Shown here: piece after piece, positions 44,024 to 62,870 of the stretch
Position numbering within the stretch: position 1 is the stretch's first letter
Layout: each line of letters opens with the position of its first letter
DNA from: Gracilibacillus salinarum
Lineage (GTDB): Bacteria > Bacillota > Bacilli > Bacillales > Amphibacillaceae
NCBI RefSeq assembly: GCF_022919575.1
Contig: NZ_CP095071.1
Location: 3,668,001-3,732,000, forward strand
DNA: 64,000 bases
Direction of reading: 5' to 3'
Notes under the pieces: model-generated
Seen by the model: only the letters and a program-made list of their open reading frames with translations
Databases searched by the model: none
Told to the model about the DNA's origin: nothing
Made by a program: the position numbers and the translations under genes

Positions 44024-44785
44024 CTAAAGTATTTGCGATAAAAACAGCTTTGTCCGATCATTTTTTGGATTATCGAACAATTCTTCTGGTGAGCCGGATT
44101 CGACGATTTCGCCTTGATCGAACAGTACAATGCGATCGGCTACTTCGCGTGCGAAGCCCATTTCGTGTGTGACGCAGAGCATCGTCATTCCCGATCTGGC
44201 CAGTTCTTTCATAACGTCGAGCACTTCTTTGATCATTTCAGGGTCGAGTGCAGAGGTGGGTTCGTCAAACAGCATAATTTCTGGTTCCATGGCAAGTGCT
44301 CTTGCTATAGCAACACGTTGCTGCTGACCTCCGGATAGCTGTCCGGGGTATTTATGCGCTTGTTCTGGTATGCCAACGCGTTCCAATAAATCTAATGCCA
44401 GCTGTTCTGCTTTTGCCTTCGGTTTTTTTCGAATCCAGATGGGAGCGAGGGTGATATTTTTTAAGATTGTCATATGTGGGAACAGATTAAATTGCTGAAA
44501 TACCATTCCGGTTTCTTTTCTTATCCGTTCAATATCTTTCACGTCATGGGACAGGTTGATTCCATCTATCGTTATGTCACCTTGCTGTACTTCTTCTAAA
44601 CCGTTGATCGTTCTGATGAAAGTCGATTTGCCAGATCCTGAAGGGCCAAGAATAACGAGCACTTCTCCTTTTTTTACGTTTAAATTGACGTCTTTTAAGA
44701 CATGAAGATTGCCGAACCATTTATTGACATTGTTACACGCGATAATAAAATCTTTCTCCGTTGCTTGTGCTGTTTGTTCCAACAT
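44024..44785 (-). CDS. aapP: amino-acid ABC transporter ATPase (AapP/GlnQ type)
   Basis: About 253 aa. Walker A is [12 protein letters not shown], the Q-loop is in [13 protein letters not shown], the signature is [16 protein letters not shown], Walker B is [14 protein letters not shown], and the switch histidine is in VTHEMGFA. It powers polar amino-acid uptake by the two permeases encoded just upstream. I start at the second ATG (44785), seven bases after AAGGAG; the ATG at 44791 nearly touches the site. It is last in the operon, 18 bp after the preceding permease. Confidence 0.92.
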
Positions 44786-44803
44786 AATCATACTCCTTTC
44801 TTT

Positions 44804-46003: not shown

Positions 46004-46006
46004 CGA

Positions 46007-47181
46007 TCACCTCTCCACAATTTGCATTTTGCTATTAAAGATATTCATAAAAACAGAAGTAAAGATACTAAGAATTAAATAAACCATAATCATAATTAAT
46101 ATCGACTGTATCGCCCGCCCAGTCTGGTTGTTGATAGTTTCTGCCACATAGACTAAATCTGGATAGCCCGCCGCTACTGCCAGACTTGAGTTTTTTGTCA
46201 GGTTCAAATATTGACTGGTGACTGGGGGATAATGGTACGAATCGCTTGTGGGAATACAACAAAACGCATTGCTGTTGAATTCTTTAATCCAAGTGCTCTT
46301 GCTGCCTCCCGTTGCCCTTTTGAGACGGATTGAATACCACCGCGGACGATTTCTGCAATGTATGTCGCTGTGTAAATCGTTAAAGCGAGAAAAATAGCTA
46401 GAAAATTCTCAGATACAATATAGCCACCTTCAAAATTAAAGTTACCTAGTACTGGAACGTCAATCGTCACTGGCGCCTGCTGTGTGATAACTAGTGCAAC
46501 GAAGAGTGGAGCAATAAAGGCGAGCAAGCCCCAAAGTAACGGAAAACCTTTCTTTCCTGACTGAATCTGTTTACTACTTTTTACTCTCCATATTACAATA
46601 GCAAGTACTACGGCTAGGATAAATGTGATAAGCCATAGCAAGCTGCTGGCATTCGTTTGAAACCACGGAATGGCAGCTCCACGGTTACTAAGGAATACAG
46701 GGCCAAGCTCTATGCTTTCTTTCACCCCAGGTAAGGCAAGGAAGACCGCAAAATACCAGATCAATATTTGAACGAGTAAAGGTGTATTACGAAAAATCTC
46801 AATATAGACGGTTGCCATTTTCTGGACTAACCAGTTACTGGATAATCGGCTGATTCCTACAACGACACCAATAATCGTAGCGAAAATTATCCCGATTACG
46901 GATACTTTTATCGTATTTAATATTCCTACTAAGATTGCTTTTACATAGGTATCGGTTGATTGATATTCAATCATGGACTCTCCGATATTAAAGGAGGCCA
47001 TTTTCTGTAAAAAACCGAATCCAAGGTTAATTCCTAACGCTTGCAGTTCTTGTACAGCATTGTGAATTAGATAAGAAGCAATGCCGACGATGACTGCGAT
47101 GAACAAGACCTGAAGCAGTATTGGTGTGATTCGGTTATCCCTCCAGAAAGGTGTGGACATATTCGATTGCGATTTTGCCAA
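46007..47181 (-). pseudogene. aapQ: amino-acid ABC transporter permease (AapQ type), frameshifted
   Basis: Two frames make one permease of about 390 aa. The first ends QREAARALGLKNSTAMRFVVFPQAIRTIIPQSPVNI. In the shifted frame IIP-PVTSQYLNLTKNSSLAVAAGYPDLVYVAETINNQTGRAI continues, exactly the expected AapQ sequence. The break lies in a G5 tract at 46224-46228 (C5 on the coding strand); six Cs would restore the frame. The start is TTG at 47181, nine bases after GGAGG. The rest of the operon is intact, so a base-call error or a slippage switch must be considered. Confidence 0.85.
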
Positions 47182-47268
47182 GTTCGATCACCTCCAATAA
47201 GATAGATGTTTTGCTTAATATGGATGAATGACCTGTTCCGGATAAAGCAGAACAGGTCATCCAAGTAA

Positions 47269-48396
47269 TTAACGGAATGGAGGTGAATATAATAGTCCAC
47301 CATTCGTCCAATTTTCATTTTGTCCTCTTTCTAATTTGAAGATGGTGTCTGGACCAAGGTGGCGATCATAGATTTCACCATAATTTCCAACGTGCTTGAT
47401 TACTCTGTAGGCAAAGTCATTCGGTAAGCCCATCATGGCACCTAATTCTCCTTCAACTCCTAATAAACGTCTGATCACCGGATCTTCGCTTTCCAGATAA
47501 TCGTCAACATTCTCAGAAGTGATTCCTAATTCTTCTGCTTCGAATGTAGCGAATGTTACCCATTTAACGATGTTGAACCATTGGTCATCTCCTTGTCTTA
47601 CAGTTGGTCCAAGTGGTTCCTTCGATAACGATTCTTCTAAGATAACGTGCGCTTCGGGATCACTTAATGTCGCCATCCGTGAAACCAGACCGGATTTATC
47701 TGTTGTCCAGGCATCTACACTTCCTTCTTCATAAGCAGCAACGAGGGCATCACTGTCATCAAACGTTACTTGTTCATATTCAATTCCAAGTTTACGGAAT
47801 TGGTCAGCCAGGTTTAATTCGGTGGTGGTTCCTGTCTCCACACCAATACGAGCACCGGCTAAATCTTCTAAACTAGTAATACCACTGTCGGCACGAACCA
47901 TCATCCCTTGCCCATCATAGAAGGTTGTCGGTCCAAAGTGCGTACCTAAGTCGGTATCTCTTGTAGTCGTCCAGGTCGTATTTCGGATAAGAACATCAAT
48001 TTCTCCTGTTTGCAGTGCGGTAAAACGCTCATCAGCTGATAGTGGTCTCACTTCGATAGCTTCAGGGTCATCAAAGATAGCGGCCGCAATGGCTTTTCCA
48101 AAATCAACATCAAAGCCTTTTATTTCGCCATCATCATCTAGATAACCAAAACCAGGAAGCTGGTTGTTACCTCCTAAAACAAGATGTCCTCGTTCTTTTA
48201 CGGCTGCTAATGTTGAACTGGCAGACCCGGCTGCTTCACCGCCTTCTCCGCTAGTATCTTCTGTATTGGTATCATCGGTAGCTTCCGTATCCCCTTCTGT
48301 ACTTGCGTCATCAGATGTACAGCCTGCAAATAGAAAAACAAGGCTAAGTAGTAGACTTACAAATAACAATGAATATGACTTTCTCTTCATAAGCAA
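47269..48396 (-). CDS. aapJ: amino-acid ABC transporter substrate-binding lipoprotein (AapJ type)
   Basis: A 375-aa lipoprotein: signal peptide ending LFAGCTSD, an acidic low-complexity linker rich in Thr, Glu and Gly to about residue 60, then the binding protein fold. TLAAVKERGHLVLGGNNQLPGFGYLDDDGEIKGFDVDFGKAIAAAIF, VDVLIRNTTWTTTRDT and ETGTTTELNLADQFRKLG match the AapJ family of general L-amino-acid transporters, known best from Rhizobium. It heads the aapJQMP operon. The start may be TTG at 48396 (seven bases after GAGGGGG) or ATG at 48390. Confidence 0.9.
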   Translation of the reverse strand: MLMKRKSYSLLFVSLLLSLVFLFAGCTSDDASTEGDTEATDDTNTEDTSGEGGEAAGSASSTLAAVKERGHLVLGGNNQLPGFGYLDDDGEIKGFDVDFGKAIAAAIFDDPEAIEVRPLSADERFTALQTGEIDVLIRNTTWTTTRDTDLGTHFGPTTFYDGQGMMVRADSGITSLEDLAGARIGVETGTTTELNLADQFRKLGIEYEQVTFDDSDALVAAYEEGSVDAWTTDKSGLVSRMATLSDPEAHVILEESLSKEPLGPTVRQGDDQWFNIVKWVTFATFEAEELGITSENVDDYLESEDPVIRRLLGVEGELGAMMGLPNDFAYRVIKHVGNYGEIYDRHLGPDTIFKLERGQNENWTNGGLLYSPPFR

Positions 48397-48657: not shown

Positions 48658-48787
48658 CGAAGGATGGAACTGGTGTTAAACCCTCGATCCCGCCAGTTAC
48701 GAGCATTATTCTGCGATGTGTGCAAAATGTTTGTAAGAATGTCTTACGGAAGTGTTTAACAAAATGAATGGAAGTAGGTTATTTTTC

Positions 48788-48832
48788 TTTGACAGTTTGT
48801 GTAAATCAATCGAATAGGCCCTGTTTTATAAT
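48788..48832 (+). promoter_or_regulatory. shared motif and promoter, pyrimidine operon 1
   Basis: Motif TTTGACAGTTTGTGTAAATC at 48788-48807; TATAAT at 48827-48832. No good -35 is present, as expected if an activator is needed. The motif start to the -10 is 39 bp, matching the sites at 56083 and 59200. Confidence 0.65.
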
Positions 48833-48909
48833 GAAACGTATCAACAAATCATCAGTCATTATCGATTAGGCAGAATAATACTGGATTGGCAGTAAAGGGA
48901 GGATAACAA

Positions 48910-49800
48910 ATGTCAGATAAAGTAACGATAGGGTTAATTCAGGCGAAAAATGATATCAATGGAGCGGAACCGGTAGAACGTCATAAAGAAGCAGCGATTC
49001 AGAAGCATATCAATATGGTTCGTGAAGCCCATGAGAAAGGGGCGCAAATTATTTGTTTACAGGAAATATTTTATGGTCCGTATTTTTGTACGGAACAAAA
49101 TCCGAAATGGTATGATGCCGCAGAGGAAATCCCGGAAGGTCCTACTACGCGATTATTTCAGGAATTGGCGAGAGAGCTTGAAGTCGTCATCGTGTTACCA
49201 ATCTATGAAAAAGTCGGAATCTCTACTTATTATAATACCGCGGCTGTGATCGATGCGGATGGCAGCTACTTAGGCAAATACCGTAAGCAGCATATTCCAC
49301 ACGTTGGTGTAGAAAAAGAAGGTTGCGGATTTTGGGAGAAGTTTTATTTTAAACCAGGAAACTTAGGTTACCCTGTATTTGATACAGCCTACGCAAAGAT
49401 TGGCGTCTATATTTGTTATGATCGTCATTTTCCCGAAGGTGCTAGATTGCTAGGGTTAAATGGAGCGGAAATTGTCTTTAATCCTTCGGCAACGGTCGCA
49501 GGATTGTCGGAATATTTATGGAAGCTGGAACAACCCGCACACGCTGTTGCTAATGGATATTATGTAGCTGCAATTAATCGGGTAGGTAATGAAGCACCAT
49601 GGAATATGGGCGAGTTCTATGGTCAGAGCTATTTAGTAGACCCGCGTGGAAACTTTGTGGAGACAGGCAGTAGAGATCAAGATGAAATTATTATTGCTGA
49701 TATGGACAAGAAATTAATTCGTGAAGTGAGAGACACCTGGCAGTTTTACCGTGACCGTCGTCCGGAAACGTATGATGAGATGAGTGCCTTGTTACCGTAG
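48910..49800 (+). CDS. beta-ureidopropionase (N-carbamoyl-beta-alanine amidohydrolase)
   Basis: A 296-aa nitrilase-superfamily enzyme. Catalytic residues are readable as E52 (CLQEIFYGPYF), K126 (KYRKQHIP) and C169 (VYICYDRHFPEG). It should cleave N-carbamoyl-beta-alanine to beta-alanine, CO2 and ammonia, the third step of reductive pyrimidine breakdown; the neighbouring preTA and dihydropyrimidinase genes support this over a generic carbamoylase. GGGAGG precedes the ATG. It is the first gene of the operon, 31 bp before the PreT start. Confidence 0.9.
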   Translation: MSDKVTIGLIQAKNDINGAEPVERHKEAAIQKHINMVREAHEKGAQIICLQEIFYGPYFCTEQNPKWYDAAEEIPEGPTTRLFQELARELEVVIVLPIYEKVGISTYYNTAAVIDADGSYLGKYRKQHIPHVGVEKEGCGFWEKFYFKPGNLGYPVFDTAYAKIGVYICYDRHFPEGARLLGLNGAEIVFNPSATVAGLSEYLWKLEQPAHAVANGYYVAAINRVGNEAPWNMGEFYGQSYLVDPRGNFVETGSRDQDEIIIADMDKKLIREVRDTWQFYRDRRPETYDEMSALLP

Positions 49801-49830
49801 TTTCATTCAAAAGAAATGGAGGGTACATTC

Positions 49831-51183
49831 ATGATAAAAACTGTAGCGATGCAGCTGAAAGAAAATTTTGATGAAATTCACCCCGATTTAACCGCTAAAG
49901 AAGCAATCGATGAATCCAATCGCTGTTTATATTGCTATGATGCACCATGTACAATCGCATGTCCTACCAGTATTGATATACCATCTTTTATTAAGAAAAT
50001 AACCAGTGGAAATTTGAGAGGCTCTGCCAAGACCATCATGCAGTCTAATCCGGTTGGGGCAAGCTGTGCAAGAGTTTGTCCAACAGAGGAGTTATGTGAA
50101 GGTGCCTGTGTGTTAAATGATGCTTCAAAGCCTATTAAAATCGGCGACCTGCAACGATATGCTACAAATTGGGCAATAAAAAATGAACAAGTTCTATTTA
50201 AAGCAGGTAAGAAAAATGGTAAGAAAATTGCGATCATCGGCTCCGGACCTGCTGGACTTTCGGCAGCTCGAGAGCTTGCATTGCTAGGTTACTATGTCAC
50301 TATTTTTGAGGCGGAAGAGCATGCGGGAGGACTAAATCATTACGGCATTGTATCCTTTCGTCTGCCCCAGGAGATCGCTTTTTGGGAAGTGAAGCAAGTG
50401 GAGAATTTGGAGGTGGAAATCAGAACCAATACTAGAGTTGGTACAGATATATCGATCAGCAGCATCAAGGAGAATTTTGATCGTGTCATCTTAGCTGTCG
50501 GTATGGCAACTGTACCTGAACTGGGAATGGAGGCAGAAGCAGAAATTCTTGATGCAATTGAATTCGTTAAGCGTACGAAATCGACCCCTTTACCGAAAGA
50601 CATGATAGGGAAGAAAGTAGTCGTCATAGGTGCAGGTAATACGGCGATTGATGCAGCGACTTGTTCGGTTCGCTTAGGTGCCAGCAATGTCAAAATGTTA
50701 TATCGCAGGACTCGTCAGGAGATGACGGCGTATGATTTTGAGTATGATTTGGCCAAGCAAGATGGTGTGGAGTTTCGCTGGTTAACGCAACCGACAAAGC
50801 TGATTCTAGATTCATCAGGGAAGGTGAAAGGGTTAGAATGCATGAAAATGAGGTTGGCAGAAGCTGGAGCGGATGGAAGACGCCGTCCTGTACCTGTACC
50901 TGATTCATTGTTTAGGATGGATGCTGATTTTATTATTAAAGCAATTGGACAAACGAGACATGTAACGCTAATGGATGATTTCTCACTGAAGCATATCAAT
51001 GGGGTGCCGCAAGTTGATCCTGCTACTTATCAGACCTCAGAACCTATGATTTATGCATGCGGCGACAGTATCTTTCAAGAAGGGAACGGTGAGGCGATGG
51101 TTGTTACAGCTGCTGAACAAGGAAAGAAAGTCGCTTATTCGTTACATCAGGACTTATTCGGTGCAAAAGAAACTGCGTCATAA
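49831..51183 (+). CDS. preT: dihydropyrimidine dehydrogenase subunit PreT
   Basis: A 450-aa flavoprotein related to the small subunit of glutamate synthase. The N-terminus carries two cysteine clusters for iron-sulfur centres, CLYCYDAPCTIACP and CARVCPTEELCEGAC. An FAD site follows in IAIIGSGPAGLSAARELALLGY, and an NAD(P)H site in KVVVIGAGNTAIDAATCSVRLG. With PreA it reduces uracil and thymine to their dihydro forms using NADH. The start is the ATG at 49831, seven bases after GGAGGG; the ATG at 49816 would contain that site. preA follows after 22 bp. Confidence 0.95.
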   Translation: MIKTVAMQLKENFDEIHPDLTAKEAIDESNRCLYCYDAPCTIACPTSIDIPSFIKKITSGNLRGSAKTIMQSNPVGASCARVCPTEELCEGACVLNDASKPIKIGDLQRYATNWAIKNEQVLFKAGKKNGKKIAIIGSGPAGLSAARELALLGYYVTIFEAEEHAGGLNHYGIVSFRLPQEIAFWEVKQVENLEVEIRTNTRVGTDISISSIKENFDRVILAVGMATVPELGMEAEAEILDAIEFVKRTKSTPLPKDMIGKKVVVIGAGNTAIDAATCSVRLGASNVKMLYRRTRQEMTAYDFEYDLAKQDGVEFRWLTQPTKLILDSSGKVKGLECMKMRLAEAGADGRRRPVPVPDSLFRMDADFIIKAIGQTRHVTLMDDFSLKHINGVPQVDPATYQTSEPMIYACGDSIFQEGNGEAMVVTAAEQGKKVAYSLHQDLFGAKETAS

Positions 51184-51205
51184 CAAACATAAAGGGGGTA
51201 ATAAG

Positions 51206-52489
51206 ATGGCAGACTTAAGCATTGATATAGCTGGTATCCAATCACCGAATCCATTCTGGTTAGCGTCAGGTCCTCCTACCAATTCGGGTTATCAAGTCCA
51301 GCGTGCATTTGAGGCAGGATGGGGAGGAGCTGTGTGGAAGACGCTTGGTGAACCGGTATTAAATGTTTCATCCCGTTTTGCAGCGCTTCATTACAATAAT
51401 CAACGTGTGGTCGGTTTTAATAATATTGAGTTAATTACCGATCGTTCCTTAGAAGAGAATTTACAGGAAATCTATGAAACAAAAAAGAAATACCCAAATC
51501 ATGCCATTATCGCATCTTTAATGGTTGAACCAGAAAGAGAAAAGTGGCATGAAATTATCAAACGCGTGGAGGATACAGGTGTAGATGGCTATGAATTAAA
51601 TTTCGGCTGTCCCCATGGTATGGCAGAAAGAGGAATGGGTTCGGCTTCTGGTCAGGTTCCGGAACTTGTTGAAAAACAAACCTATTGGACAAAGGAAGTA
51701 GCATCTAAACCGGTTATTGTAAAGTTGACGCCGAACATAACGGATATCACTTTTACTGCGAAGGCTGCGGTTAAAGGTGGGGCAGATTCTATCAGCATGA
51801 TTAATACGATTAATAGTTTAGCAGGAGTTGACATCGATACGTGGGACACAATTCCGCATGTAGGGCATAAAGGCGCCCACGGCGGGTACTGTGGGCCGGC
51901 GGTAAAACCTATTGCGCTTCATATGGTGGGAGATTGTGCCCGTAACCCAGCAATAGATATTCCGATATCTGGTATCGGTGGTGTATCAAACTGGAAAGAC
52001 GCTGTTGAGTTTATGTTAATGGGTTCAACCAGTGTACAAGTATGTACGGCTGGGATGCATCACGGTTTTCGGATCGTGGAGGATATGATAGAGGGATTAG
52101 ATAATTATTTAGATGCCAAAGGTATTGATTCTGTCATGGACATCGTCGGAAAAACCGTTCCGAAATATGCAGATTGGGGTGATTTGGATTTAAATTATAA
52201 GGTTGTTGCGAAGATTAATAATGATGTCTGTATTAATTGTAATAAGTGCCATATTGCTTGTGAAGACACATCACATCAGTGCATTGATATGTTGAAAAAT
52301 GATCAGGGTATTCCATATCTTGAGGTGAGAGAAGAAGATTGTGTAGGTTGTAATTTATGTTCGATTGTTTGTCCGGTTGATGGTGCGATCGATATGGTCG
52401 AAGTGGGGAGCGAATTCTCTGCAATGACCTGGAATCAGCGCCAAGCTATCACAGGGATGGGAAATCGTTTAGCAGATGTGGGGAAGTAA
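51206..52489 (+). CDS. preA: dihydropyrimidine dehydrogenase subunit PreA
   Basis: A 427-aa protein made of an FMN-binding dihydroorotate-dehydrogenase-like barrel and a C-terminal pair of [4Fe-4S] centres. Barrel motifs are PFWLASGPPTNSGYQVQRAFEAGWGGAVWKT, NFGCPHGMAERGMGSA and PISGIGGVSNWKDAVEFMLMGSTSVQVCTA. The ferredoxin part has CINCNKCHIAC and CVGCNLCSIVC near residues 345-395. It forms the pyrimidine-reducing site fed by PreT. The start is the ATG at 51206 behind AAAGGGGGT; the longer frame into preT is chance. Confidence 0.96.
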   Translation: MADLSIDIAGIQSPNPFWLASGPPTNSGYQVQRAFEAGWGGAVWKTLGEPVLNVSSRFAALHYNNQRVVGFNNIELITDRSLEENLQEIYETKKKYPNHAIIASLMVEPEREKWHEIIKRVEDTGVDGYELNFGCPHGMAERGMGSASGQVPELVEKQTYWTKEVASKPVIVKLTPNITDITFTAKAAVKGGADSISMINTINSLAGVDIDTWDTIPHVGHKGAHGGYCGPAVKPIALHMVGDCARNPAIDIPISGIGGVSNWKDAVEFMLMGSTSVQVCTAGMHHGFRIVEDMIEGLDNYLDAKGIDSVMDIVGKTVPKYADWGDLDLNYKVVAKINNDVCINCNKCHIACEDTSHQCIDMLKNDQGIPYLEVREEDCVGCNLCSIVCPVDGAIDMVEVGSEFSAMTWNQRQAITGMGNRLADVGK

Positions 52490-52519
52490 TAATCGGTAAT
52501 CATAATAGGAGGTGCCCGA

Positions 52520-53941
52520 ATGGGGTTGAAATTGATTAAGAATGGAACTATTGTTACAGCATCTGATATGTATAAGGCAGATATATTAATAGAGGGTGAA
52601 CAGGTCGCTTTAATTGGAACAAATTTAACATATGACAATGCAGAAATTATTGATGCGGAAGGATATTATGTCATGCCGGGCGGTGTAGATCCACACACAC
52701 ATTTAGAGATGCCTTTTGGTGGTACAGTCAGTAAGGATGATTTTGAAACGGGAACGATCGCTGCAGCGTTTGGAGGTACGACAACGTTGATCGATTTTTG
52801 TATTACCCGAAAAGGTGAATCCCTTCAAAATCCTATTCGGGAATGGCATGCCAAATCAAAAGATAAAGCTGTGATCGATTACAGCTTTCACTTAATGATT
52901 GGCGAAATAAACGACGAAGTCATGAAGGAATTACCGGTTATTTTAAAGGAAGAAGGGATTACTTCTTTTAAAGTTTTTATGGCATATAAAGATGTTTTTC
53001 AAGCAGATGATGGTACCCTTTTTCAGACGTTACAGACGGCGAAAGAGCTAGGAGCACTTGTCATGGTCCATGCAGAGAACGGAGATGTGATTGACTACTT
53101 AGTGAATGAAGCATTGTCAGCTGGTAACACAGCGCCGATCTATCATGCCCTGACACGACCGCCGGAAGCTGAGGGAGAAGCAACAGCGAGAGCAGCAGAA
53201 CTAACTGGATTAGCAGGTTCCCAGTTATATGTTGTTCATGTTTCTTGTGAAGAAAGTGCCAGCAAAATTAAAGAAGCTCGGGAGAAAGGCTATGACGTAT
53301 GGGGGGAAACATGCCCGCAATATTTAGTACTGGATCAGGATAAGTTAGACTTACCAGATTTTGAAGGTGCTAAATACGTTTGGTCACCTCCATTGCGGGA
53401 AAAGTGGAATCAAGACAAATTATGGAGTGCGCTGAAGAATGGCAGTCTGCAAACGATTGGATCGGATCAATGCTCATTTGATTTTGATGGTCAGAAAACG
53501 TTAGGAGAAGGCGATTTCTCTAAAATTCCCAACGGCGGACCGATGATAGAAGATCGTTTTAGTATATTATTTTCAGAAGGTGTGAAGAAGGGACGAATTA
53601 GTATTAATCAATTTGTCGATATGATTTCGACCAGATCAGCTAAGCTATTTGGGATGTATCCGAAAAAAGGAACGATTGCTGTTGGATCAGATGCGGATAT
53701 TGTATTGTTTGATCCAGTTAAAGAGCGAACTATTTCAGTGGATACCCACCATATGGCGGTAGATTACAGTGCTTTCGAAGGGATGCAGGTCACAGGTGAA
53801 CCTGTAACTGTACTGTCGAGAGGCGAATTTGTCATTAAGGATCAGCAATTTGTCGGTACATTAGGTGCTGGTCAGTACATTAAACGAGCGCGGTATGGTG
53901 AGAGATTGGTTAATCAAGCAGATAGAATTGCCTTGAAATAG
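52520..53941 (+). CDS. hydA: dihydropyrimidinase
   Basis: A 473-aa cyclic amidohydrolase that opens dihydrouracil or dihydrothymine to the N-carbamoyl amino acid. Metal ligands are H59 and H61 (DPHTHLEMP), the carboxylated lysine K151 (TSFKVFMAYKD), later histidines in VHAENGD and VVHVSCEES, and the aspartate in IGSDQCSFDFDG. Length is typical of hydantoinases. AGGAGGTG precedes the ATG. Its position between preA and the regulator gene makes pyrimidine, rather than free hydantoin, the likely substrate. Confidence 0.94.
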   Translation: MGLKLIKNGTIVTASDMYKADILIEGEQVALIGTNLTYDNAEIIDAEGYYVMPGGVDPHTHLEMPFGGTVSKDDFETGTIAAAFGGTTTLIDFCITRKGESLQNPIREWHAKSKDKAVIDYSFHLMIGEINDEVMKELPVILKEEGITSFKVFMAYKDVFQADDGTLFQTLQTAKELGALVMVHAENGDVIDYLVNEALSAGNTAPIYHALTRPPEAEGEATARAAELTGLAGSQLYVVHVSCEESASKIKEAREKGYDVWGETCPQYLVLDQDKLDLPDFEGAKYVWSPPLREKWNQDKLWSALKNGSLQTIGSDQCSFDFDGQKTLGEGDFSKIPNGGPMIEDRFSILFSEGVKKGRISINQFVDMISTRSAKLFGMYPKKGTIAVGSDADIVLFDPVKERTISVDTHHMAVDYSAFEGMQVTGEPVTVLSRGEFVIKDQQFVGTLGAGQYIKRARYGERLVNQADRIALK

Positions 53942-53962
53942 CATGATAAAGGAAGTGATGGC

Positions 53963-54172
53963 TTGTCAGCATTTAATTTGTATGTGGAAGAGCGAAGAGG
54001 TATTGATGATTTATTGATGAAAGGCTATAGCATCATTGGTCTTCAAGATAATCTAGACGGCGCTATCGTATTTTTGCAAAAAGAAGCAGTTATTGAAAGT
54101 ATTCAAGTAAATATAGCAGATACCCGTAAATACCTTTCTAATGTCATGCTGCATCAAAATATATCACGTTAA
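53963..54172 (+). CDS. small protein of unknown function in the pyrimidine cluster
   Basis: A 69-aa protein that I do not recognise. It starts with TTG at 53963 behind AAAGGAAGTGAT. The sequence alternates charged and hydrophobic residues (EERRGIDDLLMKGYSIIGLQDNLDGAIVFLQKEAVIESIQVN) and looks like a small alpha/beta fold without a signal peptide or membrane helix. It lies 22 bp after hydA in the same direction, so it is probably co-transcribed. A chaperone or regulatory role is possible but nothing shows it. Confidence 0.6.
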   Translation: MSAFNLYVEERRGIDDLLMKGYSIIGLQDNLDGAIVFLQKEAVIESIQVNIADTRKYLSNVMLHQNISR

Positions 54173-54337
54173 CGCAGAAGCGTAATTGCAAAATAATAGA
54201 CAGATTTATTCACAGAGTGCATGTCAAAGGTGGAAAAAAATGTTACGTTATCGGTGAGAGATCAATATGCCAATAGACTTCCTAGAGCATCTCCGTTTGA
54301 TCAGTAGAATAGCTGAATTCTGAGGAGGAGAAGTAAT

Positions 54338-55996
54338 ATGTCTGCAATCAAGTTAACGGTAAGAGAGGTCTTAGAGGATGCATGTTTTGAACAAGCAGAA
54401 TTGGTTGCCGGTGATAAAGGATTAGATAACATTGTCCGCTGGGTGCACATTATGGAAGTGACGAACATTGATAATCTGCTAAACGGGTCAGAATTGATTT
54501 TATCGACTGGTGTTGGATGGCGAGATTTTAAAGGCGCGTGTGTTTCTTACTTCCAACAATTAATTGATGCAGGAGTTGCTGCTCTCTGCATCGAATTGGT
54601 TAAGTATGCCAATTCGATTCCTCAAGAAATGTTAGAATTGGCGAATGAACATCGGATACCTTTAATTGTTTTCCATCAGGAAGTGCGATTTATTGATATT
54701 TCTCAAGTAATGAATAAACGTCTTGTCAACACACAATATCGCATCCTATCTGATTTAGAAGACTTCTCGAGCAAGCTTAATCAAGTTATGCTATTACCCA
54801 ATGCATGTCATCGTGTGTTGAAGCTTATTCATCAATATCTTCGTGTACAAGTAATTTATATCCCACATAACTCCGAAGACATTACCTTTCTCCCATTACC
54901 AAACAAAAATGAACAGCAGAAGTTAGTAGCGACGATTGAAGCTGATAAGGAAAATCGTGTTATTAATCGCAATAAACAATTCATCGCAACCGATCAATCC
55001 TATGTTGGTCAATCCGTTCAAGCAATGGATGTCAAATTTGCTGATATTATCTTTTTTACGAGATATCAGGCCATTACAGAATACGAGTTATTAGTTCTTG
55101 ACCGTTGTGCAAATGCGATTTCTCAGGATTTAATCAGAGCCTTTTATTTAGAAGAACAAAGGAAACAGAAAAAACAGCAATGGATTTACGAATGGATCAG
55201 TGGAAGCTATAAAGAAGAAGATATTATCCAATATTTAAGTTCATTAGACGCAACCATTAATCCAAATGGTGCTGTTGTTTGTGTTTGCCGTCTCCATGCG
55301 CTGATGCATGATGATAATCAGTCCTATCATATCGCTGTTTTTCGTAATGTTCTTCAGAAATATGGGTTTTTTCTGGTGTCGCTATACGATCAGAAGCAGT
55401 TCGTGTTTGTACTCGTAAACGTTCGAACTCAATGTGATTGGAAGTTAAGGTTGGAAAAAGTCATTCGACATATTGCGAATATGAATCTGTACAAATTAGA
55501 TACGACACCGTACGCTTGGCTTGGTGTCGGGAAGCTGACAGAAGATATTCACGAGATACAGGAAAGCTATCAGTCGGCTTTGGAGGCACTTGCTATTCAA
55601 AACCAGGCAAAAATAAAAGACAAAATATTTTATGAAGATTTACACATTTACCGATTGGTGGCCAGTTTAAATAAAGCAATCTGCCTGGAAGACTATATAC
55701 AAGAATACTTAGGCGAGGTTTTAGACTATGACGAAGCACATAATAGCGACTTACTCTATACGTTACAAAAATATCTGGAATGTAATGGATCGAAGAATGA
55801 TGCAGCGAAACGCTTATATGTAGTAAGACAAACCTTATACCACAGATTAAGTAAGTTGAAAGAATTACTTGGGGCAGATTTCATGGAACCTGCAAAACGT
55901 TCCACCATTGAATTTTTGATCCATGCCTACCGATATCAATATCCAAATCATGAACAACAGGTGTTGAAGTCAGTTGTGAAAGAAGGAAACGCATAG
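54338..55996 (+). CDS. PucR family transcriptional regulator
   Basis: A 552-aa regulator. The N-terminal PucR ligand/sensor domain covers about residues 5-130 (TVREVLEDACFEQAELVAGDKGLDNIVRWVHIMEV). The C-terminal PucR-type helix-turn-helix is at about 480-530 (YLECNGSKNDAAKRLYVVRQTLYHRLSKLKELLG). In B. subtilis PucR controls purine catabolism. Here the position between the catabolic genes and the dehydrogenase gene suggests that it senses a pyrimidine or beta-alanine-type product. The motif shared by three nearby promoters is its best candidate target. GAGGAGGAG precedes the ATG. Confidence 0.9.
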   Translation: MSAIKLTVREVLEDACFEQAELVAGDKGLDNIVRWVHIMEVTNIDNLLNGSELILSTGVGWRDFKGACVSYFQQLIDAGVAALCIELVKYANSIPQEMLELANEHRIPLIVFHQEVRFIDISQVMNKRLVNTQYRILSDLEDFSSKLNQVMLLPNACHRVLKLIHQYLRVQVIYIPHNSEDITFLPLPNKNEQQKLVATIEADKENRVINRNKQFIATDQSYVGQSVQAMDVKFADIIFFTRYQAITEYELLVLDRCANAISQDLIRAFYLEEQRKQKKQQWIYEWISGSYKEEDIIQYLSSLDATINPNGAVVCVCRLHALMHDDNQSYHIAVFRNVLQKYGFFLVSLYDQKQFVFVLVNVRTQCDWKLRLEKVIRHIANMNLYKLDTTPYAWLGVGKLTEDIHEIQESYQSALEALAIQNQAKIKDKIFYEDLHIYRLVASLNKAICLEDYIQEYLGEVLDYDEAHNSDLLYTLQKYLECNGSKNDAAKRLYVVRQTLYHRLSKLKELLGADFMEPAKRSTIEFLIHAYRYQYPNHEQQVLKSVVKEGNA

Positions 55997-56082
55997 TTTA
56001 AGACAATAGCGACTCTTATTGGAGAGTCGTATTATTGTGCGACAAAATCCTCTTAAAAAGCGTGAAAAGTATTTAGGTTTGA

Positions 56083-56128
56083 TTTGACTAATTGTCTAAT
56101 GCCACCACGTCAGGACCTAATTTATAAT
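56083..56128 (+). promoter_or_regulatory. shared motif and promoter, dehydrogenase-aminotransferase operon
   Basis: Motif TTTGACTAATTGTCTAATGC at 56083-56102; TATAAT at 56123-56128, 40 bp from motif start. No other -35 is evident. Confidence 0.65.
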
Positions 56129-56159
56129 AAGATCAATTATTACAGAAAAGAGGGTGATG

Positions 56160-57632
56160 ATGCCTATGTCAAAGATTGAGGTAGCAGGTGCGACGCTTCA
56201 GAATTTTATAAATGGGGAGTGGGTTGATGCTTATGCAACAGAATCTCAGCCAGTTGTTAATCCTGCAACGGAAGAATGTCTGACGAATGTCCCGTTATCT
56301 TCAGATGAGGATGTAGATAGAGCTGTTCAATCGTCTTTGTCTGCATTTGGGGAATGGAAGAAAACACCCGTGTCTAAGCGGGCTCGAATTTTATTTCGAT
56401 ATCATCAGTTGCTAACAGACCATCATCAGTTTTTGGCAGAGATGGTGTCAGAGGAAAATGGTAAAAGCTATAAGGAAGCATATGGTGAGGTGTTAAGAGG
56501 AATTGAGTGTGTAGAATTTGCGACAAGTGCTCCGACTTTAATGATGGGTGATAATTTATCTACTATCGCATCAGATATTGATTCTGAGTTCTTTCGTTAT
56601 CCAATTGGTGTCGTTGCTGGCATTGCTCCTTTTAATTTTCCAATGATGGTTCCGTGCTGGATGTTCCCAATCGCGATTGCTTGTGGAAATACTTTTCTAT
56701 TGAAACCATCTGAGAAAACCCCTTTACTAGCCAATAAGTTAGTAGCATTGTTGGATGAAGCGGGCTTGCCAAAAGGGGTATTGAACGTCGTACATGGCAC
56801 GCATGAAGTTGTCAATAGAATTTTGGATCATCCGGATATTGCGGCTGTATCCTTCGTCGGTTCAGATCCAGTGGCGAAATATGTGTATCAGAATGCTGCT
56901 TCAAATGGGAAAAGAGTGCAGGCATTAGCAGGAGCAAAAAATCATCATATTGTGCTACCAGATTGTGATCAGGATCGATCGATTGATCATATTATTAATT
57001 CTGCTTTTGGAAGCGCGGGACAACGGTGTATGGCATGTAGCGCCGTAATCGCTGTTGGTGATAAAGCAGATTCTTTTATCGCTATGCTTAAAAAGAAAGC
57101 TGATCAAATTAAAATTGGGAACGGAATGGACGAAGATGTGACCGTTACTCCATTAATAAGTCAAGAAAGCAGAAATAGAGCACTTGACTACATCGATAAA
57201 GGTATTGCGGAAGGAGCGCAACTCATTCGAGATGGCCGGATCGATATGGAAACCTTCAACAAAGGTAACTTTTTAGGGCCAACGATTTTTGATTATGTGA
57301 CTCCTGATATGTCAATAGCAGAGAATGAATTGTTTGCCCCGATTTTAAGTGTGATTCGTGCAGCAGACCTAAAGGAAGCGATCGATATCATCAATCAATC
57401 AAAATTTGGCAATTCGGCAACACTTTATACAAATAGTGCTTCTGCAGTGAGAACATTTCGAGAAGAAGCAGAGCCAGGTATGTTGGGTGTTAATGTAGGC
57501 GTTCCTGCCCCAATGGCCTTTTTCCCTTTCTCTGGATGGAAGCATTCTTTTTATGGTGACTTACATGTGAATGGAAAGGACGGAGTGGAATTTTATACAA
57601 GAAAGAAAATGATTACTTCAAGGTTTTATTAA
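56160..57632 (+). CDS. mmsA: CoA-acylating (methyl)malonate-semialdehyde dehydrogenase
   Basis: About 490 aa, an aldehyde dehydrogenase of the MmsA/IolA group, which oxidises malonate or methylmalonate semialdehyde to acetyl-CoA or propionyl-CoA with NAD. The catalytic cysteine is in FGSAGQRCMACSAV (about residue 290). NAD-binding blocks APFNFPMMVPCWMFPIAIACGNTFLLKPSEKTP and FVGSDPVAKYVY are present. It would complete uracil and thymine breakdown after the adjacent aminotransferase. Start codons at 56154, 56157, 56160 and 56166 are all possible; 56160 lies five bases after AGAGGG. Confidence 0.92.
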   Translation: MPMSKIEVAGATLQNFINGEWVDAYATESQPVVNPATEECLTNVPLSSDEDVDRAVQSSLSAFGEWKKTPVSKRARILFRYHQLLTDHHQFLAEMVSEENGKSYKEAYGEVLRGIECVEFATSAPTLMMGDNLSTIASDIDSEFFRYPIGVVAGIAPFNFPMMVPCWMFPIAIACGNTFLLKPSEKTPLLANKLVALLDEAGLPKGVLNVVHGTHEVVNRILDHPDIAAVSFVGSDPVAKYVYQNAASNGKRVQALAGAKNHHIVLPDCDQDRSIDHIINSAFGSAGQRCMACSAVIAVGDKADSFIAMLKKKADQIKIGNGMDEDVTVTPLISQESRNRALDYIDKGIAEGAQLIRDGRIDMETFNKGNFLGPTIFDYVTPDMSIAENELFAPILSVIRAADLKEAIDIINQSKFGNSATLYTNSASAVRTFREEAEPGMLGVNVGVPAPMAFFPFSGWKHSFYGDLHVNGKDGVEFYTRKKMITSRFY

Positions 57633-57646
57633 CAGGGAGGGAAATT

Positions 57647-58990
57647 ATGATCAAGAATGTAGCAAGCACGCCTTTAGAGAAAGATTCCCAATATATCTGG
57701 CATTCGATGAAGAAGTATCATCCTGACTCGACGATGATAGTGAAACATGCAGACGGCTCTTGGGTTACAGATGTGGAAGGCAAACGCTATCTAGATGCAA
57801 TGAGCGGGTTGTGGTGTGTAAATGTAGGGTATGGGAGAGCTGAATTGGCAGAAGCTGCTTATCAGCAAATGAAAGAACTGGCTTATTATCCACTGACACA
57901 AAGTCATCTTCCAGCCATTCAACTAGCTGAAAAACTAAATGAATGGCTCGGTGATGAATATGTCTTTTTTTTCTCCAATAGTGGATCGGAAGCAAATGAA
58001 GTAGCGTTCAAGATCGCTCGACAATACCATCGGCAAAACAACCAGCCTGACCGTTATAAGTTTATTTCACGTTACAGAGCCTATCATGGCAATTCGATGG
58101 GCGCTTTGGCAGCAACGGGACAGGCGGAGCGGAAATATTTATATGAACCACTTGCACCAGGGTTCTTGCACGTGGCACCGCCAGATTGTTATCGCAGTTC
58201 GCATCCTGCAGATGGTACATGTTGCAGTGAGAGTGCGAAGGATATTGAACGTGTGATGATGTGGGAGCTCGATCAGACAATCGCTGGTGTAATCATGGAA
58301 CCGATTATTACAGGTGGTGGCGTATTGGTTCCTCACCAGCATTATTTAAAGGAAGTAAGTGATAGTTGTCAGCGTCACGGAGCATTGCTGATCGTCGATG
58401 AAGTCATCAATGGATTCGGTCGAACCGGCAAACCATTTGGCTTTATGCATTATGACGTAAAACCTGACATCATTACGATGGCAAAAGGCTTAACAAGCGC
58501 TTATCTGCCATTATCAGCAACCGCTGTACGTAAAGATATCTATCAGGCTTTTCAGGGACGAGAGCCATATCACCATTTACGGCATATTAATACATTTGGT
58601 GGCAATCCAGCTGCATGTGCTGTTGCCTTGAAGAATTTAGAAATCTTAGAAAAAGAACAATTAGTCGAACGTGCTAAGCAGCTTGGATGTAGATTAGCAA
58701 TGGAGATGCAGGAACTATATCGTCATCCACGTGTAGGTGATGTCCGAATTAAAGGGTTACTGATGGGGATTGAATTAGTAGAAGATAAGCAGTCCAAGCA
58801 GCCTATTGAACCGGACAAAATTCAAGCAATAATAGCTCGTTGTAAAGAAAAAGGGTTAATTATCGGAAAGAATGGTGACACCGTTGCGGGTTACAATAAT
58901 ATCATCACCATTAGTCCGCCACTTAGTATAACGGATGACGATTTTGCATTTATGACACGTGTCTTAAAAGAATCAGTTGCAAGCCTTTAA
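57647..58990 (+). CDS. beta-alanine (omega-amino acid):pyruvate aminotransferase
   Basis: A 447-aa class III PLP aminotransferase. The Schiff-base lysine is K280 in TMAKGLTSAYLP. The cofactor-binding segment NSGSEANEVAFKIARQYH (111-128) and LLIVDEVINGFGRTGKPFG (248-266) are family marks. With mmsA 14 bp upstream it should convert beta-alanine or 3-aminoisobutyrate to the semialdehyde. The amino acceptor, pyruvate or 2-oxoglutarate, cannot be told from sequence. GGGAGGG precedes the ATG. Confidence 0.92.
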   Translation: MIKNVASTPLEKDSQYIWHSMKKYHPDSTMIVKHADGSWVTDVEGKRYLDAMSGLWCVNVGYGRAELAEAAYQQMKELAYYPLTQSHLPAIQLAEKLNEWLGDEYVFFFSNSGSEANEVAFKIARQYHRQNNQPDRYKFISRYRAYHGNSMGALAATGQAERKYLYEPLAPGFLHVAPPDCYRSSHPADGTCCSESAKDIERVMMWELDQTIAGVIMEPIITGGGVLVPHQHYLKEVSDSCQRHGALLIVDEVINGFGRTGKPFGFMHYDVKPDIITMAKGLTSAYLPLSATAVRKDIYQAFQGREPYHHLRHINTFGGNPAACAVALKNLEILEKEQLVERAKQLGCRLAMEMQELYRHPRVGDVRIKGLLMGIELVEDKQSKQPIEPDKIQAIIARCKEKGLIIGKNGDTVAGYNNIITISPPLSITDDDFAFMTRVLKESVASL

Positions 58991-59016
58991 CTCCTTTTTT
59001 GTGAAAGGAGTTTTTT
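58989..59016 (+). terminator. terminator of the mmsA operon
   Basis: AACTCCTTT and AAAGGAGTT around TTTGTG, then TTTTTT; it overlaps the stop codon of the aminotransferase gene. Confidence 0.92.
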
Positions 59017-59199
59017 GGTGGGAGATAAGAAAGTTAAACAGAGAAAACCAGAGATTTCGTTTGAATAGTGTAGCCATACAAGTAATGGTGCTGAACCTCT
59101 CCAAGCAAAGAACATAAACCTGTACCTGTTAAATAATCTTACTGTAAAGTTTCGGTGAATTCGCAAGATTTGATGGTTTGAAACATAATACTGCAAATT

Positions 59200-59244
59200 A
59201 ATTAACAGTTTGTCTAATGAGGTTGCCTGTTACAAGCAGTAAAA
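59200..59244 (+). promoter_or_regulatory. shared motif and promoter, pyrimidine-cluster ABC operon
   Basis: Motif ATTAACAGTTTGTCTAATGA at 59200-59219; TAAAAT at 59239-59244, 39 bp from motif start. The rest of the 59017-59309 gap shows no gene and no thiamine-riboswitch-like conserved blocks. Confidence 0.65.
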
Positions 59245-59309
59245 TGTTAAGAAAGATAACTTTGAAACAAAAATAGGTAAGAGCATTTTTGTGCGGGGAG
59301 GAATAATGA

Positions 59310-60083
59310 ATGAGCCTTGCTACTCCTGAGATTCAATTAGACCAAATAAGTATGACGTATCAGACGAATGACACGGAAGTATTAGCATTGCAGGATGTTT
59401 CCGTGGACATTCAGAAAGGTGAATTTGTTTCATTATTAGGTCCTTCAGGTTGTGGGAAAACAACACTGCTTAGAATAATGGCCGATTTAATTCAGCCTAC
59501 CGGAGGAGAAGTTACCGTTGACGGGAGTTCAGCACGGGAAGCAAGGCTGGCGCAGAAATATGGCATCGTCTTTCAGAGTCCCGTACTTTACGACTGGCGT
59601 AAGGTAAAACAAAATATTAATTTACCATTAGAACTGATGGGGATCGAAAAGAAAGAACGAGAACAACGTGTGGACTATCTGCTCAAATTAGTTGGATTGG
59701 ATGATTTTAAGAATAAGTATCCTTGGCAATTAAGCGGGGGAATGCAGCAGCGTGTCGCCATTGCTCGTGCACTTGCTATGGAACCGGAAATTTTATTAAT
59801 GGATGAACCTTTTTCTGCTTTGGATGAATTTACACGGGAACGGTTGAACGAAGAATTACTCTCCATTTGGAGTGAAGTGAACAACACGGTCGTGTTTGTT
59901 ACCCATAGTATTCCGGAATCTATCTTTTTATCAGATAGAGTATTGGTGCTGTCTCCACATCCAGGCAGGTTATCTGCTGTTATGGAGATTCCATTACCGA
60001 GACCACGAACGAAAGAGATGAGAAACAGTCCGGAGTTCTTTCAACTGATCACAACCATCCGTAATAGTTTTGAAGGGGTGTAA
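59310..60083 (+). CDS. ABC transporter ATPase (nitrate/sulfonate/pyrimidine type)
   Basis: A 257-aa ATPase with Walker A GPSGCGKTTLLR, Q-loop VFQSPVLYDWRKVKQN, signature [16 protein letters not shown], Walker B ILLMDEPFSALDE and switch histidine VTHSIPE. The group includes SsuB, TauB and ThiZ. Two distinct permeases and an NMT1/THI5-type binding protein follow, so this is one four-gene importer. GGGGAGGAA precedes the ATG, and the shared motif lies in its promoter. The cargo is probably a pyrimidine-ring compound used by the neighbouring enzymes. Confidence 0.9.
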   Translation: MSLATPEIQLDQISMTYQTNDTEVLALQDVSVDIQKGEFVSLLGPSGCGKTTLLRIMADLIQPTGGEVTVDGSSAREARLAQKYGIVFQSPVLYDWRKVKQNINLPLELMGIEKKEREQRVDYLLKLVGLDDFKNKYPWQLSGGMQQRVAIARALAMEPEILLMDEPFSALDEFTRERLNEELLSIWSEVNNTVVFVTHSIPESIFLSDRVLVLSPHPGRLSAVMEIPLPRPRTKEMRNSPEFFQLITTIRNSFEGV

Positions 60084-60086
60084 GAA

Positions 60087-60893
60087 ATGATAGGACAGCA
60101 TATTTGGCAACATCGATCGCTGCCTGTTTTGGTTTGGATGTTAGGATTTTTCGTTGTATGGGAAGTAGCTTCATGGTTATTACTGGAAGTGATGGAAGCG
60201 CCCATGGCACAGTCCAAGCTTCCATACGTACATGAACTTATTGTTACATTTGTTGGTTATAGTGGTGTTCTTTATTCCGAAGGGATCGCAACCTTCTCTA
60301 ATGCAGCACTAGGCTTTCTGATTGGAACGGTGCTTGGCATTGGGCTGGCTGTACTTATGAGCATATCCAAATGGGTCGAACAAATGGCTTTTCCTTATGC
60401 CGTTGCATCTCAAATGATCCCGATTTTAGGGCTGGCACCTATTATCTATGGGATTATGAGAGATGAACAGCTGGCAAGAATTATTATTGCTGGTTACATT
60501 ACGTTTTTTCCTGTGGCAATTAATATGTTAAGAGGATTGCGAAGTATTGAGTCATCAGCACTTGATTTAATGTATTCCTTAGCAGCTAAGCCGACGGAGA
60601 TTTATTGGAAATTACGTTTCCCTGCGGCTTTGCCCAGTTTGTTCAGTGGTTTGAAAATAGCAGCTCCCTTAGCAGTGACAGGTGCGATCTTGGTCGAATT
60701 AATGGGCGCACAAAAAGGAATCGGCGTTATCATGTTGATGAATCTATATTATGGTCCCTCGCACACCTACATGTTCTGGTCGACAGTTGCAGTTGGTGCC
60801 TTACTAGGATTATTCAGTTTTTTATTTATTGGTTTAATAGAGCGTTTTGTATCACCATGGCAACCGGAATTCAGAGCTGGGGGTGATCGGTAA
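60087..60893 (+). CDS. ABC transporter permease (SsuC/ThiX type), subunit 1
   Basis: A 268-aa permease with about six membrane helices. The coupling loop is AKPTEIYWKLRFPAALPSLFSGLKIAAPLAVTGAILVELMGAQKGIG, and ASQMIPILGLAPIIYGIM is a second family block. It lies 3 bp after the ATPase gene and overlaps the next permease gene by one stretch of TAATG, so it is translationally coupled. It probably pairs with the second permease as a heterodimer. Confidence 0.9.
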   Translation: MIGQHIWQHRSLPVLVWMLGFFVVWEVASWLLLEVMEAPMAQSKLPYVHELIVTFVGYSGVLYSEGIATFSNAALGFLIGTVLGIGLAVLMSISKWVEQMAFPYAVASQMIPILGLAPIIYGIMRDEQLARIIIAGYITFFPVAINMLRGLRSIESSALDLMYSLAAKPTEIYWKLRFPAALPSLFSGLKIAAPLAVTGAILVELMGAQKGIGVIMLMNLYYGPSHTYMFWSTVAVGALLGLFSFLFIGLIERFVSPWQPEFRAGGDR

Positions 60894-61760
60894 TGCCAGA
60901 AAAATCTGCAGCGGAAAAAGTGTTGGAATGGTCTGATAAGCCAAGTAAAAGGATAGTAACTTCAAAAAAATCTGCTCAGGTTTCCAAAGAAAAAAGACGT
61001 TCATATGCATCGCTCTTATTACCCGTTATTGCTGGTGTTGTCCTGCTCTTTCTATGGGAAATGCAATTCCTTCATACTATTTTTCATTTGCAATTATATC
61101 AGTTGCCGATTCCTTCTGCGATTCTTGAAGCATTGATTGATAATTTGTCCCTGCTGTTAGGTTATGCAGGCTATACCATGACTGAAGCGGTCGTCGGCAT
61201 GTTAATTGGCTCTGCTACAGGTTTTGTCATTGCTCTGACGGCAACGGCATGGCCAAAGTGGGGAAGAGGGGGACTTCTGCTGGTAGCATCCTTAAATGCT
61301 GTACCTATTGTGGCTCTGGCACCGATCATGAATTTATGGTTTGGGTCTGGGATTGGTTCACGAATTGCCATAGTGACCGTGATTACCATGGCAGCAATGG
61401 CAATTAATGCCCATAAAGGAATGAGGATGGTATCGCCATTAGCACTTGATTTAATGCATTCATATGCGGCAAAGAAGGGAGACGTTTTCCGTTATTTGCG
61501 GATCATGAACAGCTTACCTTATGTCTTTCTCCGCACTAAAAATCAATACAACGGCAAGTATGATTGGTGCTATTGTAGGGGAGTTTTTCTTTTCTTCACA
61601 AGGTCTTGGCTATTTGCTCTCCAATTCAATTAAAGTGGCAAAAATGCCGCTGGGTTGGGCGTGCATTGTTGTCGCGGCAATATCAGGTGTGATTTTTTAT
61701 TTGGTGATTGAACGATTGGAGCATGTATTTTTGAAATGGCATACTTCTCATCGCGTGTAA
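60893..61760 (+). pseudogene. ABC transporter permease subunit 2, frameshifted
   Basis: The first frame gives SYASLLLPVIAGVVLLFLWE, then AVPIVALAPIMNLWFGSGIGSRIAIV and HSYAAKKGDVFRYLRIMNSLPYVF, as expected for the permease, and then turns to nonsense (LRTKNQYNGKYDW). The second frame continues SALKINTTASMIGAIVGEFFFSSQGLGYLLSNSI to a normal end. One extra base at about 61529 (in TTTCTCC) accounts for it. Without this subunit the importer would probably be dead, which makes a sequence error worth checking. Confidence 0.85.
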
Positions 61761-61832: not shown

Positions 61833-62870
61833 ATGAAGAAGTATCGAAATCGTTTTGCAGCCATTTTGTTCATATTCGCACTATGTTTTGTTACGGCTTG
61901 TGGCAATGAAGATGCCTCGGGCGATACCGTAGAAGGAGGAGAGGAATTAATACCAGTAAAACTTCAATTAAAATGGGTACCACAAGCGCAATTCGCTGGT
62001 TATTACATGGCGATGGATCAAGGTTTTTATCAAGAAGAGGGGCTGGATGTCACAATTGTTCCAGGAGGGCCTGATATCGTTCCTGAGCAACAAGTGGCAA
62101 ATGGTGCAGCAGACATCGGTATTGGATGGGTGGCCAGTTTACTACCTCATCAGGAACAAGGATTACCGTTAGTTCAAATTGCACAAATTTATCAAAAAAG
62201 TGGTTTGGTATTAGTTTCGAAACAAGAAGCAGGAATTGAAACACCAGAAGATCTATCCGGTAAGAATGTAGGGAACTGGATGGGCGGAAATGAATTTGAA
62301 GTACTTGCACTGTTTGATAAGTATGAATTAGATCAGAATGCCGATTTATCTTTTGTTAAACAGGGATTTACGATGGATCAGTTTTTTGCAGATGAGATAG
62401 ATGCGGCATCCGCTATGACGTATAACAAATATCAAGTCGTCTTAGAAGAAGGATATGAAGAAAGTGACTTACATGTAATTGATATGAATGAAGAGGGAGT
62501 TGCGATGTTGGAAGATAACCTGTTTGCTAATACAGAGTGGTTAGGGGAAAACAAGGAAATCGCGGCAAAATTTGTTCGTGGTTCATTAAAAGGCTGGGAA
62601 GCTGCAATTGAAGATCCAGAAACAGCGGTAGACAGTGTAATGGCAGAGGCGGAAGCAGACAGTACAACGAGAGATCATCAGCTGAAAATGATGGAAGAAG
62701 TCGGGAAGTTGATATTGCCAGAAGGGTTTGACCCGGCAGACATCGGACAAATCAACGATGAGATGTTTAAACAAACAGCTGATATTGCATATGAGTATGG
62801 TGTTATTGAAGAACCAGCTAATTTAGAAAATGCCTATACGCATGAGATTATGGAGATGGTGGGTGAATAA
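61833..62870 (+). CDS. ABC transporter substrate-binding lipoprotein (NMT1/THI5-like)
   Basis: A 345-aa lipoprotein (VTACGN, cysteine near residue 23). The fold start VKLQLKWVPQAQFAGYYMAMDQGFYQEEGLDVTIVPGGPDIVPEQQVANGAADIGIGWVAS matches the NMT1/THI5-like family, which includes ThiY, a binder of pyrimidine precursors of thiamine. Given its place in the pyrimidine catabolic cluster, uracil, thymine, dihydropyrimidine or a related compound is the likely ligand; this is inference. AGAGGGGGAAG precedes the ATG. Confidence 0.9.
   Translation: MKKYRNRFAAILFIFALCFVTACGNEDASGDTVEGGEELIPVKLQLKWVPQAQFAGYYMAMDQGFYQEEGLDVTIVPGGPDIVPEQQVANGAADIGIGWVASLLPHQEQGLPLVQIAQIYQKSGLVLVSKQEAGIETPEDLSGKNVGNWMGGNEFEVLALFDKYELDQNADLSFVKQGFTMDQFFADEIDAASAMTYNKYQVVLEEGYEESDLHVIDMNEEGVAMLEDNLFANTEWLGENKEIAAKFVRGSLKGWEAAIEDPETAVDSVMAEAEADSTTRDHQLKMMEEVGKLILPEGFDPADIGQINDEMFKQTADIAYEYGVIEEPANLENAYTHEIMEMVGE

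Follow-up and report, generated by a model that had tools for sequence, protein, structure and literature searches.

The studied members of the PucR family of transcriptional regulators, as named in the excerpted text of PMC7652997, are PucR, AdeR, PutR, GabR, Srm22 and CdaR. Bacillus subtilis PucR, an activator and repressor of purine catabolism, has its protein family and a link to nucleobase catabolism in common with the regulator considered here, but it serves purine genes, and its site is given in the same excerpt as non-palindromic, whereas the element reported below is an inverted repeat. Also in B. subtilis, AdeR (alanine dehydrogenase) and PutR/PrcR (proline) are PucR-type activators working on 24- and 17-bp inverted repeats (PMC7652997, excerpt). 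Excerpts from further papers state that the AdeR site is required for ald1 in Paenibacillus (PMC9894248) and that PutR is an activator of putBCP (PMC13198045, PMC12350095); in those of PMC4617892 and PMC4016543, PucR appears in the references only. GabR of Corynebacterium glutamicum, which serves GABA use, is portrayed in the PMC7652997 excerpt as a PucR-type activator with a pair of inverted repeats immediately upstream of the −35 region and as an octamer in solution; its repeats are reported as 21 bp long and of another sequence, and it lacks the GGDEF-like domain that the present regulator carries. The reductive pyrimidine pathway is also the subject of Pseudomonas putida PydR, but this is a RutR-like repressor from a different family (title cited in PMC7332683). 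Pyd pathways are listed for Bacillus megaterium, B. smithii and Brevibacillus agri in an excerpt of that paper. A full-text literature search yielded no described activator or operator for this pathway in Bacillus and its relatives, the main pathway papers lying outside its scope and the absence being to that extent unproven.

The window analysed here is a stretch of 64,000 nucleotides, positions 3668001 to 3732000 of the 4.80-Mb single-contig genome of Gracilibacillus salinarum. Profile searches and gene context place the reductive pyrimidine pathway of the window in three units: ureidopropionase-preT-preA-hydA followed by a small open reading frame (ORF), mmsA-aminotransferase, and an ABC importer. 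The gene for a PucR-type regulator sits between the first two. Curated NCBIfam cut-offs are passed by preA, hydA, mmsA and the aminotransferase gene, while the ureidopropionase, preT and transporter genes fall below theirs and are named from the best model and the context. The genes are as follows.

48910..49800, plus strand: ureidopropionase-like nitrilase-family gene (best model below cut-off; context; orthologs 85-88% identical)
49831..51183, plus strand: preT-like oxidoreductase subunit (models below cut-off; position before preA)
51206..52489, plus strand: preA, dihydropyrimidine dehydrogenase subunit (NF006183, 668.5 bits, cut-off 335)
52520..53941, plus strand: hydA, dihydropyrimidinase (TIGR02033, 662.6 bits, cut-off 393.25)
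53963..54172, plus strand: small conserved ORF of 69 aa with a TTG start (homologs in relatives)
54338..55996, plus strand: PucR-type regulator with PucR, GGDEF_2 and HTH_30 domains (Pfam)
56160..57632, plus strand: mmsA, malonate/methylmalonate semialdehyde dehydrogenase (TIGR01722, over cut-off)
57647..58990, plus strand: class III aminotransferase (NF005812, over cut-off; Pfam)
59310..60083, plus strand: ABC transporter ATPase (Pfam)
60087..60893, plus strand: ABC permease (Pfam)
60893..61633, plus strand: second ABC permease, frame apparently shifted near its end (Pfam; comparison with relatives)
61833..62870, plus strand: NMT1-type substrate-binding protein (Pfam)

Short hairpin-like stretches found 3′ of pucR and 3′ of the aminotransferase gene would fit separate transcription units. 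In the second permease gene, relatives match one frame to about residue 212 and then another, probably as a result of a frameshift or a sequence error. The 69-aa ORF 3′ of hydA has no Pfam and no NCBIfam match. A Gracilibacillus sp. HCP3S3_G5_1 protein shares 74% identity with it, and homologs are present at 10 of the 72 named loci and in 3 of the 20 family clusters (both sets are defined below); the ORF may represent an unannotated small protein with a part in the pathway. Divergent to the ureidopropionase operon, at 44024-48396 on the minus strand, lies a polar amino acid-type ABC transporter whose binding protein has an SBP_bac_3 domain; a scan of the minus strand of this interval for the element described next showed no strong copy.

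Each of the three units is preceded by a copy of a 20-bp element at a nearly constant distance from a predicted −10 box.

48788..48807, plus strand: proximal element of the ureidopropionase operon (sequence match; hold-out conservation)
48827..48832, plus strand: predicted −10 box TATAAT, 39 bp from the motif start
56083..56102, plus strand: proximal element of the mmsA operon (sequence match; hold-out conservation)
56123..56128, plus strand: predicted −10 box TATAAT, 40 bp from the motif start
59201..59220, plus strand: proximal element of the ABC transporter operon (sequence match; hold-out conservation)
59240..59245, plus strand: predicted −10 box TAAAAT, 39 bp from the motif start

The 20-mers had been listed in the earlier note with exact letters and with starts at 48788, 56083 and 59200; the first two starts are right and the third is off by one, the true start being 59201. 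The distances of 39, 40 and 39 bp given there agree with −10 boxes beginning at 48827, 56123 and 59240. It had further described all three promoters as lacking a good −35, and this is so at 17-bp spacing, where the hexamers match TTGACA at 1/6, 1/6 and 3/6 positions, but not for the mmsA promoter at 18-bp spacing, where a 4/6 hexamer is present. Comparison with relatives defines the element as an imperfect inverted repeat of 17 bp, TTTNACA-N3-TGTCTAA, with an ATGA tail behind it; with the −10 box at 39 bp, this tail falls where a −35 hexamer spaced at 17 bp would begin. The possibility that the element is itself a plain −35 was rejected, as the TTGACA-like letters at its start lie about 32 bp from the −10 box and not 17. 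In 40 hand-collected sites, positions T2, T3, A5, C6, G12 and A16 are invariant, partly by construction because some sites were found with patterns fixing ACA and TGT. This consensus takes in 11 of the 15 looser-pattern sites from distant family clusters described below; the four dropped comprise three that lack a downstream cluster gene and one that precedes an ATPase of 35% identity, and Paenibacillus sites were kept outside. The B. subtilis PucR box is WWWCNTTGGTTAA, and TTG-N2-TAA is common to it and the element.

Conservation was assessed with a hold-out matrix built from the three window sites only, plus a −10 box at 38-41, applied to the 300 bp upstream of 12 promoters: those of the ureidopropionase, mmsA and ABC ATPase genes in Aquibacillus rhizosphaerae, A. 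koreensis, A. halophilus and the genome G109, whose regulators are 62-65% identical to that of the window. A site was found at 11 of the 12, with 0-8 of 1000 dinucleotide shuffles scoring as high, these shuffle controls taking no account of kinship between the sequences. The exception was the A. halophilus transporter, which directly follows pucR and where the matrix gave no site; the ureidopropionase site of this species is poor. None of 16 control upstream regions (preT, preA, hydA and pucR) stood out, their scores being equalled by 65-198 of 200 shuffles, and the four orthologous pucR upstreams, searched for autoregulation, gave no site. The spacing is retained as well: 39 in all four ureidopropionase promoters and all three ABC promoters, 40 in three mmsA promoters and 39 in that of A. 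halophilus. Among the mmsA promoters of the relatives, those with 40-bp spacing agree with the window's at 15-17 of the 20 motif positions, against 5-7 of 20 in the spacer that follows. The A. rhizosphaerae transporter operon, on a separate contig, has retained its site. The comparison of orthologous operons in relatives that the earlier note had called for thus shows the motif conserved, at the same spacing. A separate nine-site matrix includes sites from the relatives; the sole hold-out is the three-site matrix.

The element is found more widely. Relatives of the regulator occur at 72 named loci (1.52 Mb in all), with preA beside the regulator in 65 and the aminotransferase gene in 62. The strict core ACA-N3-TGTNTAAT matches 48 times in these loci and the reversed pattern not once; 44 of the 48 matches, distributed over 31 loci, lie at most 700 bp upstream of a cluster gene. 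The other 41 loci have no strict-core site within that distance, and many of them are from Paenibacillus, with regulators near 31% identity. In the window's own Bacillales family, 23 of the 28 genomes with preA are neither the window's own nor one of the four orthologs, and 20 of these 23 clusters were examined with a looser pattern. It gave 15 matches against 1 for the control, the best −10 box (37-42 tried) standing at 39 for every one of the 15, and no match in 6 of the 20 clusters. The exact consensus, run over 159 genomes of the family, matched 14 times in 13 genomes against 2 for the control; eight of the 13 hold the regulator (E 1e-60), five do not at that cut-off, and none of the window's own three sites was matched. 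Twenty strict-core sites in Paenibacillus, within named loci L086 to L143, stand 68-173 bp before the matched pucR start and include TATAAT-like letters; they could reflect autoregulation where pucR and mmsA diverge.

The best explanation, to which we give a probability of about 0.84, is that the PucR-type protein encoded at 54338-55996, dedicated to the control of reductive pyrimidine catabolism, has its operator in this element and, bound beside RNA polymerase, would act as activator of a three-operon pyrimidine/beta-alanine regulon. That one activator site should serve three operons was the simplest reading of the earlier note as well, and sequence comparison favours it in four respects: conservation of motif and spacing, the relocated operon of A. 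rhizosphaerae, the occurrence of preA only with the regulator, and a recognition helix unique in this genome. The presence of a PucR-family gene in mid-cluster, likewise anticipated, is confirmed by domains PF07905 (PucR, N-terminal, 120.7 bits) and PF13556 (HTH_30, C-terminal, 58.9 bits), both over Pfam cut-offs and both present in all five members of the alignment. A GGDEF-like middle domain (PF17853, 26.1 bits, cut-off 24.5) is found in four of the five; such a domain is common in the PucR family, though not universal. Pfam finds on the window's regulator only PucR, HTH_30 and GGDEF_2, on which basis a RutR/PydR-type (TetR-type) identity was rejected. Identity with AdeR was discarded too: the NCBIfam AdeR model gives 72.5 bits against a cut-off of 700, the cluster has no ald, and the element is unlike the AdeR repeat. 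Nor is the element a class-wide AdeR/PutR box, 30 AdeR-type loci containing no match with fewer than three mismatches. Other repeats are present: between adeR and ald, a conserved TTTGTGGAAATCCACAAA-like repeat is seen in all 10 loci read of 12 AdeR-type loci (L167-L178), and visual inspection of 12 proline dehydrogenase loci showed TTGTGG-type repeats in two; AdeR- and PutR-type half-sites differ from the TTTNACA of the element.

Among the 159 family genomes, the regulator (E 1e-60) is found in 44 and preA (E 1e-100) in 28. All 28 genomes with preA hold the regulator, and none of the 115 without the regulator has preA (Fisher p 3.7e-20, a nominal value since the genomes are related). The two genes are at most 15 kb apart in 27 of the 28 and lie on different contigs in the remaining one, G144. 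The 16 other genomes of the window's genus, two of them less than 90% complete, show neither; the cluster is patchy within the genus and seems to come and go as a whole. The recognition helix of the regulator's clade reads VRQTLYHR; QTLY[HN]R is present at all 30 family loci and at 71 of the 72 named loci, all of them retrieved by homology to the window's regulator.

These data bear on the first alternative, that the element is real and another regulator binds it, either a different HTH_30 protein or a nitrogen regulator of the TnrA/GlnR type, with the central pucR acting elsewhere. The genome does encode five further HTH_30 proteins, but their recognition helices differ (HRNTVVYR twice, HRNSLQYR, HYHTIVHR and HINTMKYR), VRQTLYHR being present in none, and preA was never found without the PucR-type regulator. 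As for TnrA/GlnR, one-mismatch matches to the consensus occur near two of the three promoters (at 48732, 59127, 59228 and 59245), yet such matches are about as frequent as expected by chance (50 against a mean of 38.6, with 50 reached by 5 of 100 shuffles), no exact TGTNA-N7-TNACA is present at the three promoters, and no match falls between the mmsA element and its −10 box. We regard binding by another regulator as unlikely; additional nitrogen control at these promoters may exist.

Many of the promoters carry a second, upstream copy of the element. In a scan of 38 of the 40 sites (the two of L079 were left out, this locus being a near copy of L077), the mean upstream profile was highest at −32 and next highest at −33. 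The best second site stood at −32/−33 in 20 of the 38 promoters, while no adjacent pair of offsets exceeded 7 in 300 shuffled sets: a strong signal, which the kinship and hence non-independence of the promoters keeps from being a clean p value. Within the window itself the copies score low.

48755..48774, plus strand: weak copy 33 bp upstream of the first site (3.5 bits; a stretch at −58 scores higher)
56051..56070, plus strand: very weak copy 32 bp upstream of the second site (2.4 bits; best upstream site there)
59169..59188, plus strand: weak copy 32 bp upstream of the third site (4.0 bits; best upstream site there)

In Paenibacillus, 11 promoters have a site 38 bp before TATAAT; in 10 of them a further ACA-N3-TGT core lies exactly 32 bp upstream, and in the eleventh at 33/34 (loci L084, L089, L092, L095, L100, L101, L105, L107, L139, L142 and L143). 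The three helical turns between copies suggest that a pair of dimers shares the same DNA face, and the C. glutamicum GabR octamer on two inverted repeats, as given in the excerpt of PMC7652997, is a precedent for such paired sites.

Promoter geometry also bears on the second alternative, namely that the PucR-type protein binds the element as a repressor and that a ligand relieves the repression. The element does touch the −35 position, and the TATAAT-like letters contained in the 20 Paenibacillus sites before pucR would suit a repressor. Against this, the promoters have no good −35 at 17-bp spacing, the rigid distance of 39-40 bp is what an activator contacting the polymerase would require, and nearly all studied PucR-family members activate, according to the excerpt of PMC7652997. 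Repression therefore appears improbable, still more so than binding by another regulator.

Within the genome, a degenerate pattern fitted to the three sites occurs at these three places only in 4.80 Mb, its reversed control nowhere. The relatives' consensus with up to three mismatches gives 23 near-matches, among which the ureidopropionase site, being too divergent, is missing. The two cluster sites on this list each have a TA...T box 38-41 bp further on, and none of the other 21 does. The letters of the element alone are weakly specific; letters, spacing and conservation together go far beyond chance. A chance likeness of three AT-rich promoters, which would accord with a count of near-matches only about twice that of the reversed control (23 vs 12), is contradicted by the hold-out conservation, the identical spacing and the relocated operon, and is negligible.

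Under the activator reading, a dimer of the regulator would occupy the 17-bp inverted repeat, whose centre lies some 43-44 bp upstream of the predicted transcription start. As the proximal repeat overlaps the place of the missing −35, the regulator bound there would bring in RNA polymerase at all three operons, and a larger oligomer could hold both this repeat and the weaker copy three helical turns upstream. We infer activation from the poor −35 boxes, the rigid spacing and the habit of the PucR family. Accumulation of a pathway intermediate would then switch on together the operons for uptake, for conversion of uracil to beta-alanine and for the steps from beta-alanine onward. Because the regulator keeps an aminotransferase gene as neighbour in five of the seven named loci without preA (the product at least 54% identical to the window's; mmsA also present in four of the five), our guess is that the ligand might be an intermediate from late in the pathway, for instance beta-alanine or malonate semialdehyde.

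The proposed regulon and its operator appear to be new; the regulator is of a known type and does not constitute a new kind of system. At about even odds, the VRQTLYHR clade, a distinct one among PucR-type proteins, may be a general regulator of reductive pyrimidine/beta-alanine breakdown, serving the Bacillales family of the window as well as Paenibacillus and further Bacillus-like genera, working through paired operators three helical turns apart that replace the −35 at fixed positions and sensing a late intermediate, and the small protein encoded after hydA may take part. A defined site at a rigid spacing makes the regulon predictable from sequence and lets linked genes, such as those of the ABC importer, be given a function. 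The system also allows activation from the −35 position to be tested in a family with few studied members.
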